Positions 3,889 through 6,860 of a stretch of 8,661 bases of DNA are shown here, piece after piece. Origin of the DNA: Synergistaceae bacterium (GTDB taxonomy: Bacteria > Synergistota > Synergistia > Synergistales > Synergistaceae); the NCBI GenBank assembly GCA_012513245.1, contig JAAZCN010000264.1, positions 1 through 8,661 on the forward strand. Reading direction: 5' to 3'. Below the pieces are notes generated by a model. The model was not told the origin of the DNA. It ran no database searches and worked only from the letters and a program-made list of their open reading frames with translations. Positions within the stretch are counted from its first letter, which is position 1, and each line of letters begins with the position of its first letter. Position numbers and translations under genes: made by a program.

Positions 3889-4815
3889 ATGATTTTTGCA
3901 TTAGGAGCCTTTGACGGTTTTCATATGGGCCACCAGCGTCTGCTGGAGACAGCTAAAGAGCGTGCGGAAAAGTCCGGCACGGGTTGGGGAGTCATAACTT
4001 TTGAGGGACACCCCCAGATGCTTTTTAACAAAGACTCATTCAAGCTTCTATTCACTCCTGAAGAGAGGGATATGCTGATAAACTACCTTGGCATACCTAT
4101 TGTGGACAAGGTGCCCTTCAACATCACCCTTGCAGACATGCTTCCCACAGATTTTTTGGACCACATAGCTAAAAGGGTGTCGATAGACGGGCTTGTCATA
4201 GGCGAGAATTTCCACTTTGGGCGTGCCAGGCTAGGCACTCCGGAAATTCTTGCTGATCTTTGCGCTGAACGTAACTGGTCTCTTGATGTCATTGGTTCAT
4301 TCAGGCTGAACGGGGAGATAATAAGCAGTACTTCTGTCAGAGAGGCTGTTCTGAGAGGCCAGGTCGAATCGGCCTGCGAAATGCTGGGTTATCCATTTAT
4401 GATACAAAGCAAGGTAATAAAGGGTGACGGAAGAGGCAGAGTGCTTGGGTTCCCAACTGCGAACCTCACTGTCAAGCCCAATAAAATTTATCCGGCAAGG
4501 GGAAGTTATGCGGGAATTTCCCATATAAATGGAAAATGGTACCCTGTAGCACTTAACATCGGATATAATCCTACCTTTGAAGGATCTAGAGGGCTGCACT
4601 GTGAAGCTCATATCGTTGGTTTTGACGAAGATATTTACGAAAAGACCATAACGCTCCACATCATTTCCAGAAACAGGGAGGAGATAAAATTTGCAGGCGC
4701 TGATGCCCTTGTTCAGCAGCTCAAAAAAGACATAAAGCACGCCAAAGCCAAAGCAGCGGATTATATGAGGTGCTTTCCAGATGTGCTGGATAAGTTTGCC
4801 AGGGTTGGCAATTGA
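3889..4815 (+). CDS. ribF: Bifunctional riboflavin kinase / FAD synthetase
   Basis: RibF phosphorylates riboflavin to FMN and then adenylates FMN to FAD. The N-terminal nucleotidyltransferase domain shows GAFDGFHMGH at residues 6-15, TFEGHP at 37-42, GENFHFGRARLG at 105-116 and SSTSVR at 146-151. The C-terminal flavokinase domain has GRVLGFPTANL with the Mg/ATP-binding PTAN at 189-192, then NIGYNPTFEG and a C-terminal QLKKDIKHA helix. The protein starts only five residues before the GxFDG motif, so it lacks the short N-terminal extension of many homologues, such as the Bacillus enzyme. AGGAG at 3876-3880 lies 8 nt before the ATG, so the start is well supported. No FMN riboswitch precedes it. 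The final Asn codon and TGA stop lie within the left end of a 125-bp palindromic repeat. Confidence 0.96.
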   Translation: MIFALGAFDGFHMGHQRLLETAKERAEKSGTGWGVITFEGHPQMLFNKDSFKLLFTPEERDMLINYLGIPIVDKVPFNITLADMLPTDFLDHIAKRVSIDGLVIGENFHFGRARLGTPEILADLCAERNWSLDVIGSFRLNGEIISSTSVREAVLRGQVESACEMLGYPFMIQSKVIKGDGRGRVLGFPTANLTVKPNKIYPARGSYAGISHINGKWYPVALNIGYNPTFEGSRGLHCEAHIVGFDEDIYEKTITLHIISRNREEIKFAGADALVQQLKKDIKHAKAKAADYMRCFPDVLDKFARVGN

Positions 4816-4933
4816 GGTATCTCGAAGCGCTAACTTAACAACATTCGAAGTCCTTCGCTTCGACGTATGCTAATACGCCTTAGCTTGAACTTCTTCATGT
4901 TGCGTCGTTATCATCTTCGATATACCTCAATTG
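4809..4933. repeat. 125-bp imperfect palindromic element, copy 1
   Basis: The ends are exact inverted repeats of 12 nt (CAATTGAGGTAT at 4809-4820 and its complement at 4922-4933). Imperfect pairing continues inward to a 5-bp CGTAT/ATACG stem with a 4-nt GCTA loop at 4864-4877. A second copy of identical length lies at 6615-6739, with about 90 of 125 positions identical in direct alignment. Most differences within stems are compensated in the opposite arm. The element overlaps the ribF stop codon (4813-4815) and occupies the operon's 3' end, so it may act on mRNA ends. There is no T-run after the hairpin, so it is not a classic intrinsic terminator. No ORF inside looks real. Size and palindromic form recall ERIC-type miniature elements; mobility is unproven. 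Confidence 0.85.
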
Positions 4934-5087
4934 CGAGAGTATGAGGTTGTTGATGCCGGATGCGGCGGGAGCTTGCCGCGGGAGTCGGTTGCGAATCAAT
5001 GGGGATTCTATTTTTAGGGGCGGGCGAGCGATCGGCAAGCGTTGGCAAGCAATGAGCAAGCGATTGTGATAACCTGAGAATCTTTGA
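4934..5087. other. Gene-free repeat-rich spacer with mini-hairpin and phased GCRAGC motifs
   Basis: No convincing gene is seen here. A small hairpin GCGGC/GCCGC sits at 4962-4979. It is flanked by GGGAG (4967-4971 within its loop, 4980-4984 after it), resembling the linker of the mini-hairpin arrays further right. From 5024 to 5061 the hexamer GCRAGC occurs four times, at 5024, 5035, 5045 and 5056, which is 10-11 bp spacing or one helical turn. The segment TTGGCAAGCAATGAGC (5042-5057) is locally similar to 6842-6857 in the second island. A minus-strand open frame crosses this region but has no ribosome site and no recognisable product. Confidence 0.5.
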
Positions 5088-5138
5088 CCCTTTCTCCGTC
5101 ATCCCCGGACGCCTGTGAGCGGGGATGACGGAGAAGGG
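5088..5138. repeat. Strong CGTCATCCCCG-type hairpin, copy 1
   Basis: A perfect 16-bp stem (5092-5107 with 5120-5135) closes a 12-nt loop (5108-5119). The stem extends through CCC/GGG at the base with one bulged T. Three weaker relatives lie at 6924-6953, 7019-7056 and 7109-7132, with related loops of 11-12 nt. This style of palindrome, a GTCATCCCCG arm around a short loop, is common as a dispersed intergenic repeat in many bacteria (REP-like). No T-run follows on either strand, so a transcription terminator role is not supported. It lies between ribF and the chaperone gene. Confidence 0.75.
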
Positions 5139-5154
5139 ACTTTAAGTTCTATAA

Positions 5155-5191
5155 CCATTGAATCGCAATCGATTTGCAATAGATTTCCAAT
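5155..5191 (+). repeat. 37-nt repeat, copy 1
   Basis: This stretch, starting CCATTGAATCG and ending TTTCCAAT, matches the reverse complement of 6861-6897 at 31 of 37 positions. The match extends irregularly outward through GGGAC into the neighbouring CGTCATCCCC-type hairpin. Hairpin plus 37-mer therefore appear to be one module of about 100 nt, present twice in opposite orientations. No function is evident. Confidence 0.65.
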
Positions 5192-5254
5192 TGAAATACA
5201 TGGCACGTACTTGCCATACCCAAGGTTTTTTATAATGAAGGAGGACGATTTTCC

Positions 5255-6295
5255 TTGTTGAGGTATCTAAGATCACACGTTAAGGTAATAATGATAGCTG
5301 TAATAGTTTTGTTTGTACTTTCCATCTTTGCCGGTTATGGGCTCTATGCCCGCTCCGGAAAGGGAGCAGACGGCCAGAGGGATTATGCCGTTGCTGAGGT
5401 AAACGGGAAAGATGTTATGCGTTCCGACATAGAAAAAGGGACAGTGCAGCTTGCTGAACAGCTTGGTTCTGAAAGGGAAGTTACGTCAGCCGATATCCCT
5501 TTCATGAGGAAAGCTATTCTTGACAGCACAGCGATCGAAGCCGAACTTGAAAAAGAGATCAAAAACCGTAAGATCGAAGTGACTGAGGAAGAGATCGATG
5601 AAACTTACAAGAACATAATGGACAGCTATCCTACAAGGGAAGAGTTCAAAGAATACATCAAACGCTCAGGCATGACCGAAGTCCAGATAAAGTCAGATAT
5701 CAAAAAGCAGATATCACAAAAAAAAGTTCTGGATGCTCTTGCTGCTGAGATAAATGTGCCTGACGTGGAAGCACGCAAATTCTATGACTCAGCCAAGACA
5801 TTCCTTTATAAACAGCCCGCGGGTTTTATGGTAAACATAGCTACCTTTAAAAGCAGCGAAGCCGCTGTGCTAGCTCAGAAGTCGATCGAAGGGGGAGAAG
5901 GCTGGGACAAGGTCATGGATCAGCACAAAACTGACATAATGACATCAACGCCTTACGATAAACCTGTACTTATAACGGAACAGATGATGGCTGATTCCCT
6001 TGCACCGCTCAAGGATCTCCCTCTCAATAAAGTTTCCCCTGTTATGCCAGTGACCAGTAATGATTCTTACGTGGCGATAAAAAAGAGCAAAGAAGCAGAG
6101 AAACAGCTGAGCTACGATGAAGTAAGCGCTGATGTCGTTGCAATGATAAGGAATCAGAAGTCACAGGAAAAGCAGCAGGAGTTTTACAATGAGCTGCTTT
6201 CCAGGGCAAAGATCAAGGTCCTCGATCCGAAAATATTCCCGGCGCCCGTTTCGGATGGTGTAAAAACAGAAGCAATTTCTGAAGATAAGCAGTAA
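5255..6295 (+). CDS. Membrane-anchored SurA/PpiD-type periplasmic chaperone (SurA_N domain, degenerate parvulin region)
   Basis: The 346-residue protein has a short basic N-terminus, then one hydrophobic segment at about residues 9-31 (VKVIMIAVIVLFVLSIFAGY) that should act as an uncleaved signal anchor and place the rest outside the membrane. Residues 44-175 match the SurA N-terminal chaperone fold: VAEVNGKDVMRSDIEKG, a VTEEEIDETYKNI helix and EFKEYIKRSGMTEVQIKSDI. Residues 185-285 have the outline of a PpiC/parvulin domain (LPLNKVSPVMPV, then SYVAIKKSKEA) but lack the clear F-x-x-G-x-L and terminal G-x-H-I motifs. Isomerase activity is therefore doubtful and a chaperone role likelier. The start is TTG at 5255, supported by AAGGAGG at 5238-5244 with a 10-nt gap; no suitable ATG is nearby. 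It stands alone between a repeat-filled gap and the tRNA promoter. Confidence 0.85.
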   Translation: MLRYLRSHVKVIMIAVIVLFVLSIFAGYGLYARSGKGADGQRDYAVAEVNGKDVMRSDIEKGTVQLAEQLGSEREVTSADIPFMRKAILDSTAIEAELEKEIKNRKIEVTEEEIDETYKNIMDSYPTREEFKEYIKRSGMTEVQIKSDIKKQISQKKVLDALAAEINVPDVEARKFYDSAKTFLYKQPAGFMVNIATFKSSEAAVLAQKSIEGGEGWDKVMDQHKTDIMTSTPYDKPVLITEQMMADSLAPLKDLPLNKVSPVMPVTSNDSYVAIKKSKEAEKQLSYDEVSADVVAMIRNQKSQEKQQEFYNELLSRAKIKVLDPKIFPAPVSDGVKTEAISEDKQ

Positions 6296-6318
6296 CAGGC
6301 TGTAACAAGACTGTAACA
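6292..6318. promoter_or_regulatory. Three phased GTAACA motifs upstream of the tRNA promoter
   Basis: GTAACA occurs at 6292, 6302 and 6313, spaced 10 and 11 bp. The first overlaps the TAA stop of the chaperone gene and the last is the 9-bp palindrome CTGTAACAG. The run ends 15 bp before the -35 box of the tRNA promoter, a place where activators or UP-type contacts act in stable-RNA promoters. Chance repetition remains possible; no known regulator site is recognised. Confidence 0.3.
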
Positions 6319-6333
6319 GCAGTATTTAAGGTA

Positions 6334-6362
6334 TTGACAAAGCCTGCCTTGAGCAATAAAAT
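6334..6362 (+). promoter_or_regulatory. Sigma-70-type promoter for the tRNA pair
   Basis: A perfect -35 box TTGACA (6334-6339) and a -10 box TAAAAT (6357-6362) are separated by exactly 17 bp. Transcription should begin near 6369-6370, a few bases before the first tRNA. The GC-rich CCCCTG just downstream of the -10 box resembles the discriminator of stringently controlled stable-RNA promoters; that regulation is an inference. Confidence 0.85.
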
Positions 6363-6372
6363 AGCCCCTGTT

Positions 6373-6468
6373 GGTGAGGTGGCCGAGCTAGGCTGAAGGC
6401 GCTCGCCTGCTAAGCGGGTAGGGTGGCCAAAACCGCCCTCCAGGGTTCAAATCCCTGCCTCACCGCCA
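6373..6468 (+). tRNA. tRNA-Ser (anticodon GCT)
   Basis: The acceptor stem GGTGAGG (6373-6379) pairs with CCTCACC (6458-6464), followed by discriminator G and an encoded CCA. The anticodon stem CTCGC/GCGGG encloses the loop CTGCTAA with anticodon GCT at 6409-6411, reading AGC and AGU. A long variable arm (stem AGGGTG/CGCCCT, one wobble pair) marks a class II tRNA, as expected for serine. The T-arm CAGGG-TTCAAAT-CCCTG is perfect. It is transcribed with the tRNA-Arg 14 nt downstream. Confidence 0.97.
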
Positions 6469-6482
6469 TCAATTAAGGAATT

Positions 6483-6559
6483 GCGCCGGTAGCTCAACTG
6501 GATAGAGCATCGGACTACGGATCCGAAGGTTACGAGTTCAAATCTTGTCCGGCGCGCCA
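6483..6559 (+). tRNA. tRNA-Arg (anticodon ACG)
   Basis: The acceptor stem GCGCCGG (6483-6489) pairs with CCGGCGC (6549-6555), then discriminator G and encoded CCA. The anticodon stem TCGGA/TCCGA holds the loop CTACGGA with ACG at 6517-6519. The first anticodon base should be converted to inosine, which needs a TadA deaminase encoded elsewhere. The T-stem ACGAG/CTTGT contains a G-U pair, as tRNAs tolerate. The length of 77 nt is normal. It shares the upstream promoter with tRNA-Ser and is followed by a terminator. Confidence 0.97.
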
Positions 6560-6570
6560 TTGGAATCATT

Positions 6571-6610
6571 AAATCCTCGAGGGATGTTTGTTTTCTCCTC
6601 GGGGATTTTC
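6571..6610 (+). terminator. Intrinsic terminator of the tRNA operon
   Basis: A 12-bp stem with one wobble pair (AAATCCTCGAGG at 6571-6582 with CCTCGGGGATTT at 6597-6608) closes a 14-nt loop and ends in a short TTTT tract (6606-6609). It lies 11 nt after the CCA of tRNA-Arg, the expected place for a stable-RNA terminator. The U-tract is short, so some read-through into the following repeat is possible. Confidence 0.75.
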
Positions 6611-6614
6611 TATG

Positions 6615-6739
6615 TAATTGGGGCAGCTTGAAGCGCTAGCTTAGCAACAATTATGCTCCTTCACTTCAACGTATTGATATACGCCTCAGTTCGAAGCATC
6701 GCATGTTGCATCGCTATCATCTCCGATCTGCCCCAATTA
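6615..6739. repeat. 125-bp imperfect palindromic element, copy 2
   Basis: It has the same length and layout as 4809-4933. The 12-nt ends TAATTGGGGCAG (6615-6626) and their complement (6728-6739) pair perfectly, and the tip is CGTAT/ATACG around TGAT (6670-6683). It differs from copy 1 at about 35 positions. Within the outer 12 bp all four differences are paired changes, and an inner block, ATGC at 6653-6656 with GCAT at 6696-6699, replaces GAAG with CTTC. It begins 4 nt after the tRNA terminator's T-tract, so this copy also marks the end of a transcription unit. A 60-codon open frame across it is not supported by any ribosome site or family. Confidence 0.85.
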
Positions 6740-6754
6740 CGATGGGTGAAGTGG

Positions 6755-6829
6755 GGCGTTAAGATGCCGCGAGAAATGGCGATTTCATCGCCTGGAAGCT
6801 GCGACGAAAAAACGTCGCGGGAAGCAATT
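6755..6829. repeat. Array of three mini-hairpins with 23-nt period
   Basis: Three short hairpins start exactly 23 nt apart. They are GGCGT/ATGCC (6755-6768, one G-T pair), GGCGAT/ATCGCC with loop TTC (6778-6792) and GCGACG/CGTCGC with loop AAAAAA (6801-6818). After each comes a purine-rich linker: GCGAGAAAT, TGGAAGCT and GGGAAGCAATT. Read on the minus strand, this is the same design as the array at 7187-7300, including a shared GCGAC/GTCGC hairpin and the AATT-CYCC linker. No coding potential is seen. Confidence 0.6.
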
Positions 6830-6860
6830 GTTTAAAAACTTTTGGCTGAGCAATGGCGGG

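Follow-up and report, generated by a model that had tools for sequence, protein, structure and literature searches.

The window analysed here is an 8,661-nucleotide (nt) stretch of contig JAAZCN010000264.1 from a Synergistaceae bacterium. It encodes the 3′ part of infB, a DUF503 gene, rbfA, a DHH/DHHA1 gene, truB, ribF, a SurA-like gene, tRNA-Ser, and tRNA-Arg, and it carries two palindromes, designated E1 and E2, one at the end of ribF and the other downstream of the tRNA genes. A preliminary description placed these at 4809-4933 and 6615-6739 and proposed that their differences are matched by changes in the opposite arm. Realignment reproduced their size (125 nt each), their likeness (90/125 positions identical, 72%), and all nine co-changing pairs, of which 1/125, 7/119, 10/116, and 12/114 are in strict mirror register and 25/100, 39/85, 40/84, 41/83, and 42/82 are slightly off register. 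The outer 12 bp contain only four differences (positions 1, 7, 10, and 12), each compensated as had been claimed; 17 of the 35 differing positions, all of them inner, lie outside the listed pairs. The arms in fact reach one further base pair outward (Table 1). Compared with dinucleotide shuffles, the minus strand folds with z-scores of -10.6 (E1) and -10.3 (E2) and the plus strand with z-scores of -7.5 and -5.7, and in each case none of 200 shuffles folded as well as the copy itself.

Both palindromes are members of a dispersed family of Synergistaceae hairpins, mostly about 130 bp in length. A DNA search with the first copy matched three of six Synergistaceae genomes (21 matches in G001, 17 in G002, and 6 in G004), and a covariance model built from 24 copies (R1) had matches at E<=0.001 in 17 of 52 Synergistaceae genomes. 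A second model built from 47 diverse copies (R2) gave matches at E<=1e-5 in 22 of the phylum's 185 genomes searched; beyond the phylum, one of 15 genomes of other groups gave a weak match (E 6.7e-5, at a threshold of E<=0.01). Because the element is palindromic, the models match both strands, and the better strand was kept for each place. The family is thus multi-copy, with up to 47 R1 matches per genome at E<=1e-3, some of them the opposite strand of the same copy; R1 and R2 copy numbers are lower bounds, at most 66 and 18 candidates per genome, respectively, having been scored. The best 150 of 194 matches over 100 sources (L191 omitted) yielded 124 places and 113 unique copies, with two single-contig genomes, G015 and G016, supplying 40 of the places. 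The covariance-model search of relatives suggested at the outset recovered many further copies, and the two palindromes of the window are not an isolated pair. Phage and plasmid sources of the hairpins were considered, with no match. No report of the family was found in the literature on intergenic palindromes of Synergistetes and Cloacibacillus, on REP-associated tyrosine transposases (RAYTs) and repetitive extragenic palindromic (REP) sequences, or on REPs near stop codons, as represented by titles and abstract openings, with subscription papers mostly outside this coverage.

Throughout the family, the fold is conserved rather than the sequence. Covariation was scored on 47 copies, namely 50 chosen from the 113 unique copies minus two with a swapped internal loop and L093, ten irregular copies having been removed by hand earlier. 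These copies were selected to be <86% alike, with the two of the window kept by rule, and have a mean column identity of 65%. Pairing at the 25 core pairs holds in 92.2% of cells, and 21 of the 25 show two-sided changes; columns 54/84, for example, are occupied by CG in 15 copies, GC in 13, AU in 12, and UA in 4. The covariation score was 0.516 against 0.228 for shuffled alignments, and every measure exceeded all 500 shuffles (0/500). When changes were reconstructed by the Fitch method on a FastTree tree, both partners changed with the pair kept in 80 branch events, compared with a mean of 6.7 (maximum 22) when partners were shuffled and 0 to 15 when they were slid, while 17 double changes on the same tree lost the pair. 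Outer arms are out of register across genera in this alignment and were excluded from the covariation counts; in a set of 24 more similar copies, only 3 of the 288 cells for the 12 outer pairs are unpaired. These terminal arms vary both between and within genomes, with compensation: 84 copies of the G001 clade comprise 42 with arm types I/I, 24 with II/II, three II/I hybrids, and 15 unclassified. The preliminary reading that the fold itself is kept accordingly extends to many copies whose differences are strongly compensated, rather than uncompensated as its own counter-scenario had it.

It is specifically one strand that folds. RNAalifold gave -63.5 kcal/mol for the minus strand of 24 copies and -42.7 kcal/mol for the plus strand, and the minus strand is the more stable in 134 of 137 unique copies, by a mean of 12.1 kcal with RNA parameters and 6.0 kcal with DNA parameters. 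Scored with G-T and A-C treated alike, the 107 of 113 copies that are free of N and 120-135 nt long have 235 G-U and 50 A-C mismatches between Watson-Crick neighbours on the minus strand; copy by copy, 86 of the 107 are richer in G-U, 6 are richer in A-C, and 15 are equal. Neither a strand-symmetric cruciform nor copying from arm to arm predicts such an asymmetry, which thus favours a folded single strand, either RNA or single-stranded DNA. Of the two possibilities first raised, structured RNA or DNA cruciform, the strand-specific fold sits well with a folded single strand and poorly with a strand-symmetric cruciform. A strand-biased mutation process could contribute to the asymmetry.

A 3x3 internal loop occupies a fixed place in the fold. 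In 137 predicted folds it reads GAC/UAA in 83, UAA/GAC in 15, GAA/GAA in 10, and otherwise in 18, and it is missing from 11; all 15 strand-swapped UAA/GAC copies come from G015 and G016. Since the swap preserves the module yet alters the sequence, it is hard to explain without selection on the shape of the loop. The UAA/GAN 3x3 internal loop has been described as an RNA module in 23S rRNA, RNase P, and introns (PMC12550061), and the loop forms named above would fit it. The predicted hairpin loop resembles this motif in having UAA opposite GAN within a helix and in being kept by evolution; it differs in residing in a dispersed repeat, and in predicted folds only. Tandem G-A pairs and mismatches, like G-T wobbles, are tolerated in DNA too, so the loop favours RNA without proving it.

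The elements are placed non-randomly with respect to gene ends. On the 3′ side of the folded strand, an open reading frame (ORF) of at least 80 codons ends within -60 to +40 nt of the element in 94 of 123 distinct flanks (flanks that were <250 nt, contained N, or were alike being excluded), and 55 of these 94 stops lie <=6 nt from the element; the remaining 39 are deeper inside the element or further upstream of it. On the opposite side, an ORF ends in 26 of 114 flanks, with a single stop <=6 nt away. Genes that end at the 3′ side of the folded strand read toward the element, which makes that strand antisense to them. The stop codon lies 9 nt inside the arm in three copies (E1, L170, and L103); it is mirrored in full in E1 and L103, and L170 lacks a mirror of the last stop base. 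The ribF stop codon ends in A4815, one of the compensated positions of the window, and the A-T/G-C difference between E1 and E2 thus touches a stop codon in one copy. Other elements begin shortly after terminator-like hairpins (3 nt in E2 and L135, both after a tRNA, and 5 nt in L155), and, by eye, a few stand beside the promoter-like TTGACA of a gene reading away (L152 and L149). Because of these copies, the end of the element tends to coincide with the border of a functional sequence, stop codons being only one such border. This flush placement is accounted for by none of the readings considered below.

Table 1. Features of the two hairpins and their neighbours in the window.
Feature	Coordinates	Strand	Basis or remark
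E1, 127-nt hairpin directly at the ribF stop	4808-4934	- (folded strand)	Covariance model, 141 bits on minus
E2, 127-nt hairpin a few nt past a terminator-like T-run	6614-6740	- (folded strand)	129.7 bits on minus
E1 outer arm, gene side	4808-4820		Pairs with 4922-4934 in the fold
E1 outer arm, far side	4922-4934		Predicted fold
E1 conserved 3x3 internal loop, 5′ side, GAC on folded strand	4904-4906	-	Predicted fold, coordinates from sequence
E1 3x3 loop, 3′ side, UAA on folded strand	4835-4837	-	Predicted fold, coordinates from sequence
E2 3x3 loop, 5′ side, GAU	6710-6712	-	Predicted fold, coordinates from sequence
E2 3x3 loop, 3′ side, UAA	6641-6643	-	Predicted fold, coordinates from sequence
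ribF, stop TGA (4813-4815) within E1 arm	3889-4815	+	ORF
tRNA-Ser and tRNA-Arg genes, upstream of E2	6373-6559	+	
Terminator-like hairpin with T-run, following tRNA-Arg and immediately preceding E2	6571-6611	+	-19.1 kcal, 3 nt from E2

Identical copies at unrelated loci show that the whole hairpin is moved or copied as one piece. G015 contains one set of five copies that match throughout 129 nt and another set of four that match throughout 130 nt, and the adjoining 40 nt agree at 7-16 positions on the gene side and at 17-35 on the tail side. The tail side in this genome carries a separate 32-nt repeat with 32 occurrences, 23 of 30 viewed directly following the end arm of an element. Identical hairpins beside differing tails suggest that units are inserted into, or overwrite, pre-existing sites. 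Among 54 between-genome pairs with a common gene-side flank (flanks holding another element excluded), another fetched copy of the first genome was closer than the same-site copy in 27, these pairs not being independent, as G002 and G011 are near identical. At L149/L169 the flank is 100% identical over 200 bp and the element only 86%; at L140/L185 the same-site elements are 100% conserved. Because full conservation is seen in some same-site pairs, hairpins are both inherited and replaced. The preliminary description had foreseen neither this replacement at fixed sites, nor the identical copies at unrelated loci, nor the frequent abutment on stop codons. The site of E2, after the same tRNA-Arg terminator, is likewise occupied in G002 and G011 (flank 92%, element 82%) and in G004. 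In the last of these (L004:12555-12745), an insert of about 170 bp, identified by eye, splits the element close to its tip; it has the ends GTAAGCGT/ACGCTTAC, comes with a duplication of TAATACG, and is a separate small inverted-repeat element.

Departures from the standard length also occur. G015 has 44 forward arm matches; the partner arm lies at 128-129 nt in 30 of them and at other distances (100-319 nt) in nine, and five have none. The variants L285, L311, L293, L301, and L291 of this genome show an additional domain near the tip (211 nt), one arm longer by 59-60 nt, or a closed stem in place of the tip domain (100 nt). Some elements bear short (10-nt) end duplications at the gene side. 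Target-primed reverse transcription, suggested by these duplications and by the sharp gene-side ends, was rejected, as its signature of loss from one end only was not found: among 50 partial copies from G001-clade loci and the window, the 5′ end of the folded strand is kept in 22, the 3′ end in 15, and the middle in 10, with edges or N in the other three. Group II introns were likewise discarded as carriers, the intron end, as judged by eye, falling within other repeated DNA at a distance of some 200 nt from the element. Six reverse-transcriptase places were viewed in G015, where two further matches were outside those examined; five lie near an element (L213, L221, L226, L228, and the overlapping L230/L231), with the element of L226 on the other side of the gene, and L229 has none. 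The genes or fragments at these places are of the group II intron type where tested. Across the 52 genomes, RVT_1 occurs in nine, three of which (G012, G015, and G016) are among the 17 with elements.

The site of E1 is without an element in four Synergistaceae metagenome-assembled genomes (L001-L004), whose RibF is 81-87% identical to that of the window and of the same length (308 aa), with a C-terminus of LIL, LAL, LEL, or LTL against VGN in the window. In these four, a promoter-like TTGACA-N17-TATTAT (TATCAT in L003) extends over the ribF stop; by eye, it was not seen at 4815-4860 of the window, and the SurA-like gene may have lost this promoter where E1 sits. The terminator-like hairpin preceding E2 is absent from the list produced by a consensus-based scan of the region. 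A 19-bp inverted repeat at 5089-5138 has arms that are 95% complementary around a 12-nt loop and, by eye, resembles hairpins in the flanks of other loci. Also by eye, 6745-6830 and flanks in L146, L153, and L161 contain strings of short hairpins whose stems vary and whose linkers (GGNGAATTTG; GAAGTGCGGC..) are conserved. The short-hairpin strings in intergenic regions of this clade apparently represent other repeat families.

The family differs in defining features from REPs, REPINs, enterobacterial repetitive intergenic consensus (ERIC) elements, miniature inverted-repeat transposable elements (MITEs), and attC sites. ERIC and Correia (NEMIS) elements are intergenic, about 100-150 bp long, and form a long hairpin; unlike ERIC, the Synergistaceae hairpins have terminal arms that are not conserved between genomes. 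E. coli genomes carry ERIC, and E1 had no match in 20,395 E. coli records, in line with the initial impression of no sequence kinship. Classical MITEs have conserved terminal inverted repeats, whereas those of the present family vary with compensation. The attC sites of integrons are palindromes just after stop codons in which the gene-antisense strand folds and structure is conserved rather than sequence. This candidate was rejected, as none of the 52 genomes contains an integron integrase over the curated cut-off; moreover, the neighbours in the window are housekeeping genes, and no attC end boxes were seen by eye against the attC consensus.

REPs offer a closer comparison. Like the REPs and bacterial interspersed mosaic elements of E. 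coli (PMC12306157), the hairpins are palindromic and extragenic, and some of them lie <=15 nt from a stop codon. REPs are 20-40 bp long, and most have GTAG or CGTC end tags (PMC3733652); the present elements are about 130 nt long and lack such end tags, CGTC being seen by eye only internally, at the 3x3 loop. Tagged REPs have been reported in eight phyla, and the word Synergist is absent from the text of that paper (PMC3733652). REPINs are hairpin doublets with common compensatory spacer changes, and RAYT enzymes acting on single-stranded DNA are believed to move them (PMC3116915; PMC6006769). As with REPINs, the hairpins are dispersed, extragenic, and predicted to form in single-stranded DNA or mRNA, with frequent compensatory changes and some clusters (PMC3116915). 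Unlike REPINs, which are described as randomly distributed in extragenic space (PMC3116915), they have varying outer arms around a conserved inner loop, measure mostly 128-131 nt, and are often flush with and oriented to a gene end.

We consider the chances about even that these elements constitute a new REPIN-like family of mobile hairpins selected for the fold of one strand. The folded single strand would be the substrate of whatever moves or exchanges the hairpin unit, and the fold would be kept for that reason. As proposed for REPINs, a transposase of the HUH/RAYT type may act on the hairpins in single-stranded DNA, and hairpins at persistent docking sites would from time to time be overwritten by other copies. 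A candidate enzyme is present in G011, which encodes a REP-associated tyrosine transposase (NF047646, REP_Tyr_transpos) at 90.4 bits against a cut-off of 80. Long Y1 proteins (311-320 aa) are encoded in G011 (two) and G042 and, in broken form, in G002, all of which bear elements.

Several observations weigh against this proposal. The long Y1 version was not found in the element-carrying genomes G001, G012, G013, G004, G005, and G015, and Y1 transposase genes (PF01797) show no association with the elements, being present in 6 of 17 genomes with elements and 12 of 35 without. Beside four long Y1 genes (L200, L211, L203, and L204, a subset of the Y1 loci), there was no element match at E<=0.1. 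The architecture is also the reverse of that of REPINs, whose ends are conserved and whose middle varies, and the placement is non-random. No target-site duplication was seen by eye in the viewed flanks, and ordinary recombination that overwrites whole hairpins could explain the identical copies without any enzyme. It is because the Y1 genes are unassociated, missing from several element-rich genomes, and, in the four long cases, unflanked by elements that we hold the REPIN-like proposal no higher than an even chance and still entertain, at clearly lower probability, a role as RNA. As a separate observation, the RAYT-like genes L200, L211, and L203 are preceded by repeats starting with AATTGGGGTCAGACC or similar, which resemble the element arm AATTGGGGCAGATC of the same clade; this likeness may be due to chance.

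An RNA role, although unlikely, is the foremost alternative. Here, a minus-strand transcript would fold and bind a protein or RNA partner through its UAA/GAN-type and tandem-GA loops, and copies would have spread because the RNA is useful or because it is copied back into DNA. Besides the loop forms, the tolerance of G-U within helices and a C(UUCG)G tip in L113 are consistent with this, as is a promoter-like site on the minus strand before E2 (6894-6867, 9/12 matches), yet seven such sites occur in the region against 4.0 expected. However, no Rfam family covers an element at its gathering score, only tRNA and group II intron being matched, and at a loose Rfam threshold 13 loci gave, besides tRNA, only weak hairpin matches to microRNA and other families far below gathering scores. 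The folded strand is, moreover, antisense to the adjacent gene, and the G-A mismatches and G-T wobbles it contains would be accommodated by DNA as well.

Equally doubtful in our estimation is that the hairpins form a new class of cassette, in which the heritable information would be the fold of one strand and units would pass between fixed docking sites that directly abut gene boundaries. The gene-side arm would take on the need of the host gene (the stop codon in E1) and the far arm would follow, while three-dimensional modules, including the strand-swappable UAA/GAN loop, would persist with little sequence memory; such exchange might be templated by RNA or single-stranded DNA, with an unrecognised enzyme of its own.

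It is quite improbable that the plus strand is what matters, transcribed with the gene as an mRNA 3′ untranslated element that serves as a stabiliser, translation regulator, or terminator, like the REPs of E. coli. The 55 of 94 stops within 6 nt of an element would fit, and REPs within 15 nt of a stop codon have been found to stall ribosomes (PMC12306157), the proportion near stop codons being 260/496 from an earlier study but 446/4,072 in that paper's own set. The plus strand, however, folds worse in 134 of 137 copies, and some copies lie past a terminator-like hairpin (E2, L135, and L155) or at a promoter-like TTGACA (L152 and L149). Least probable of all is the absence of selection on the fold, with compensated differences arising from arm-to-arm copying by template switching, as the preliminary description had allowed, together with gene conversion of whole hairpins: replacement at fixed sites, the three hybrids with unmatched outer arms in the G001 clade, and the short gene-side end duplications agree with it, and some of the G-U/A-C asymmetry could be imitated by a mutation bias that differs between the strands, but arm copying is strand-symmetric and yields Watson-Crick pairs, leaving 235 G-U against 50 A-C unexplained, and it does not explain the retention and strand swap of a non-Watson-Crick loop.

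As a dispersed repeat preserved through its shape, the family is an unusually clear example. Structure-level covariation, the usual proof of a functional RNA, is found here in a repeat that is moved or copied as a unit, and covariation tests on intergenic repeats can thus mistake mobile hairpins for RNAs. The oriented placement at stop codons resembles that of part of the E. coli REPs and provides a second system for asking why such elements settle there. The hairpins of the Synergistaceae are, in this sense, a natural experiment on what selects a fold, be it recognition of single-stranded DNA or a role as RNA.

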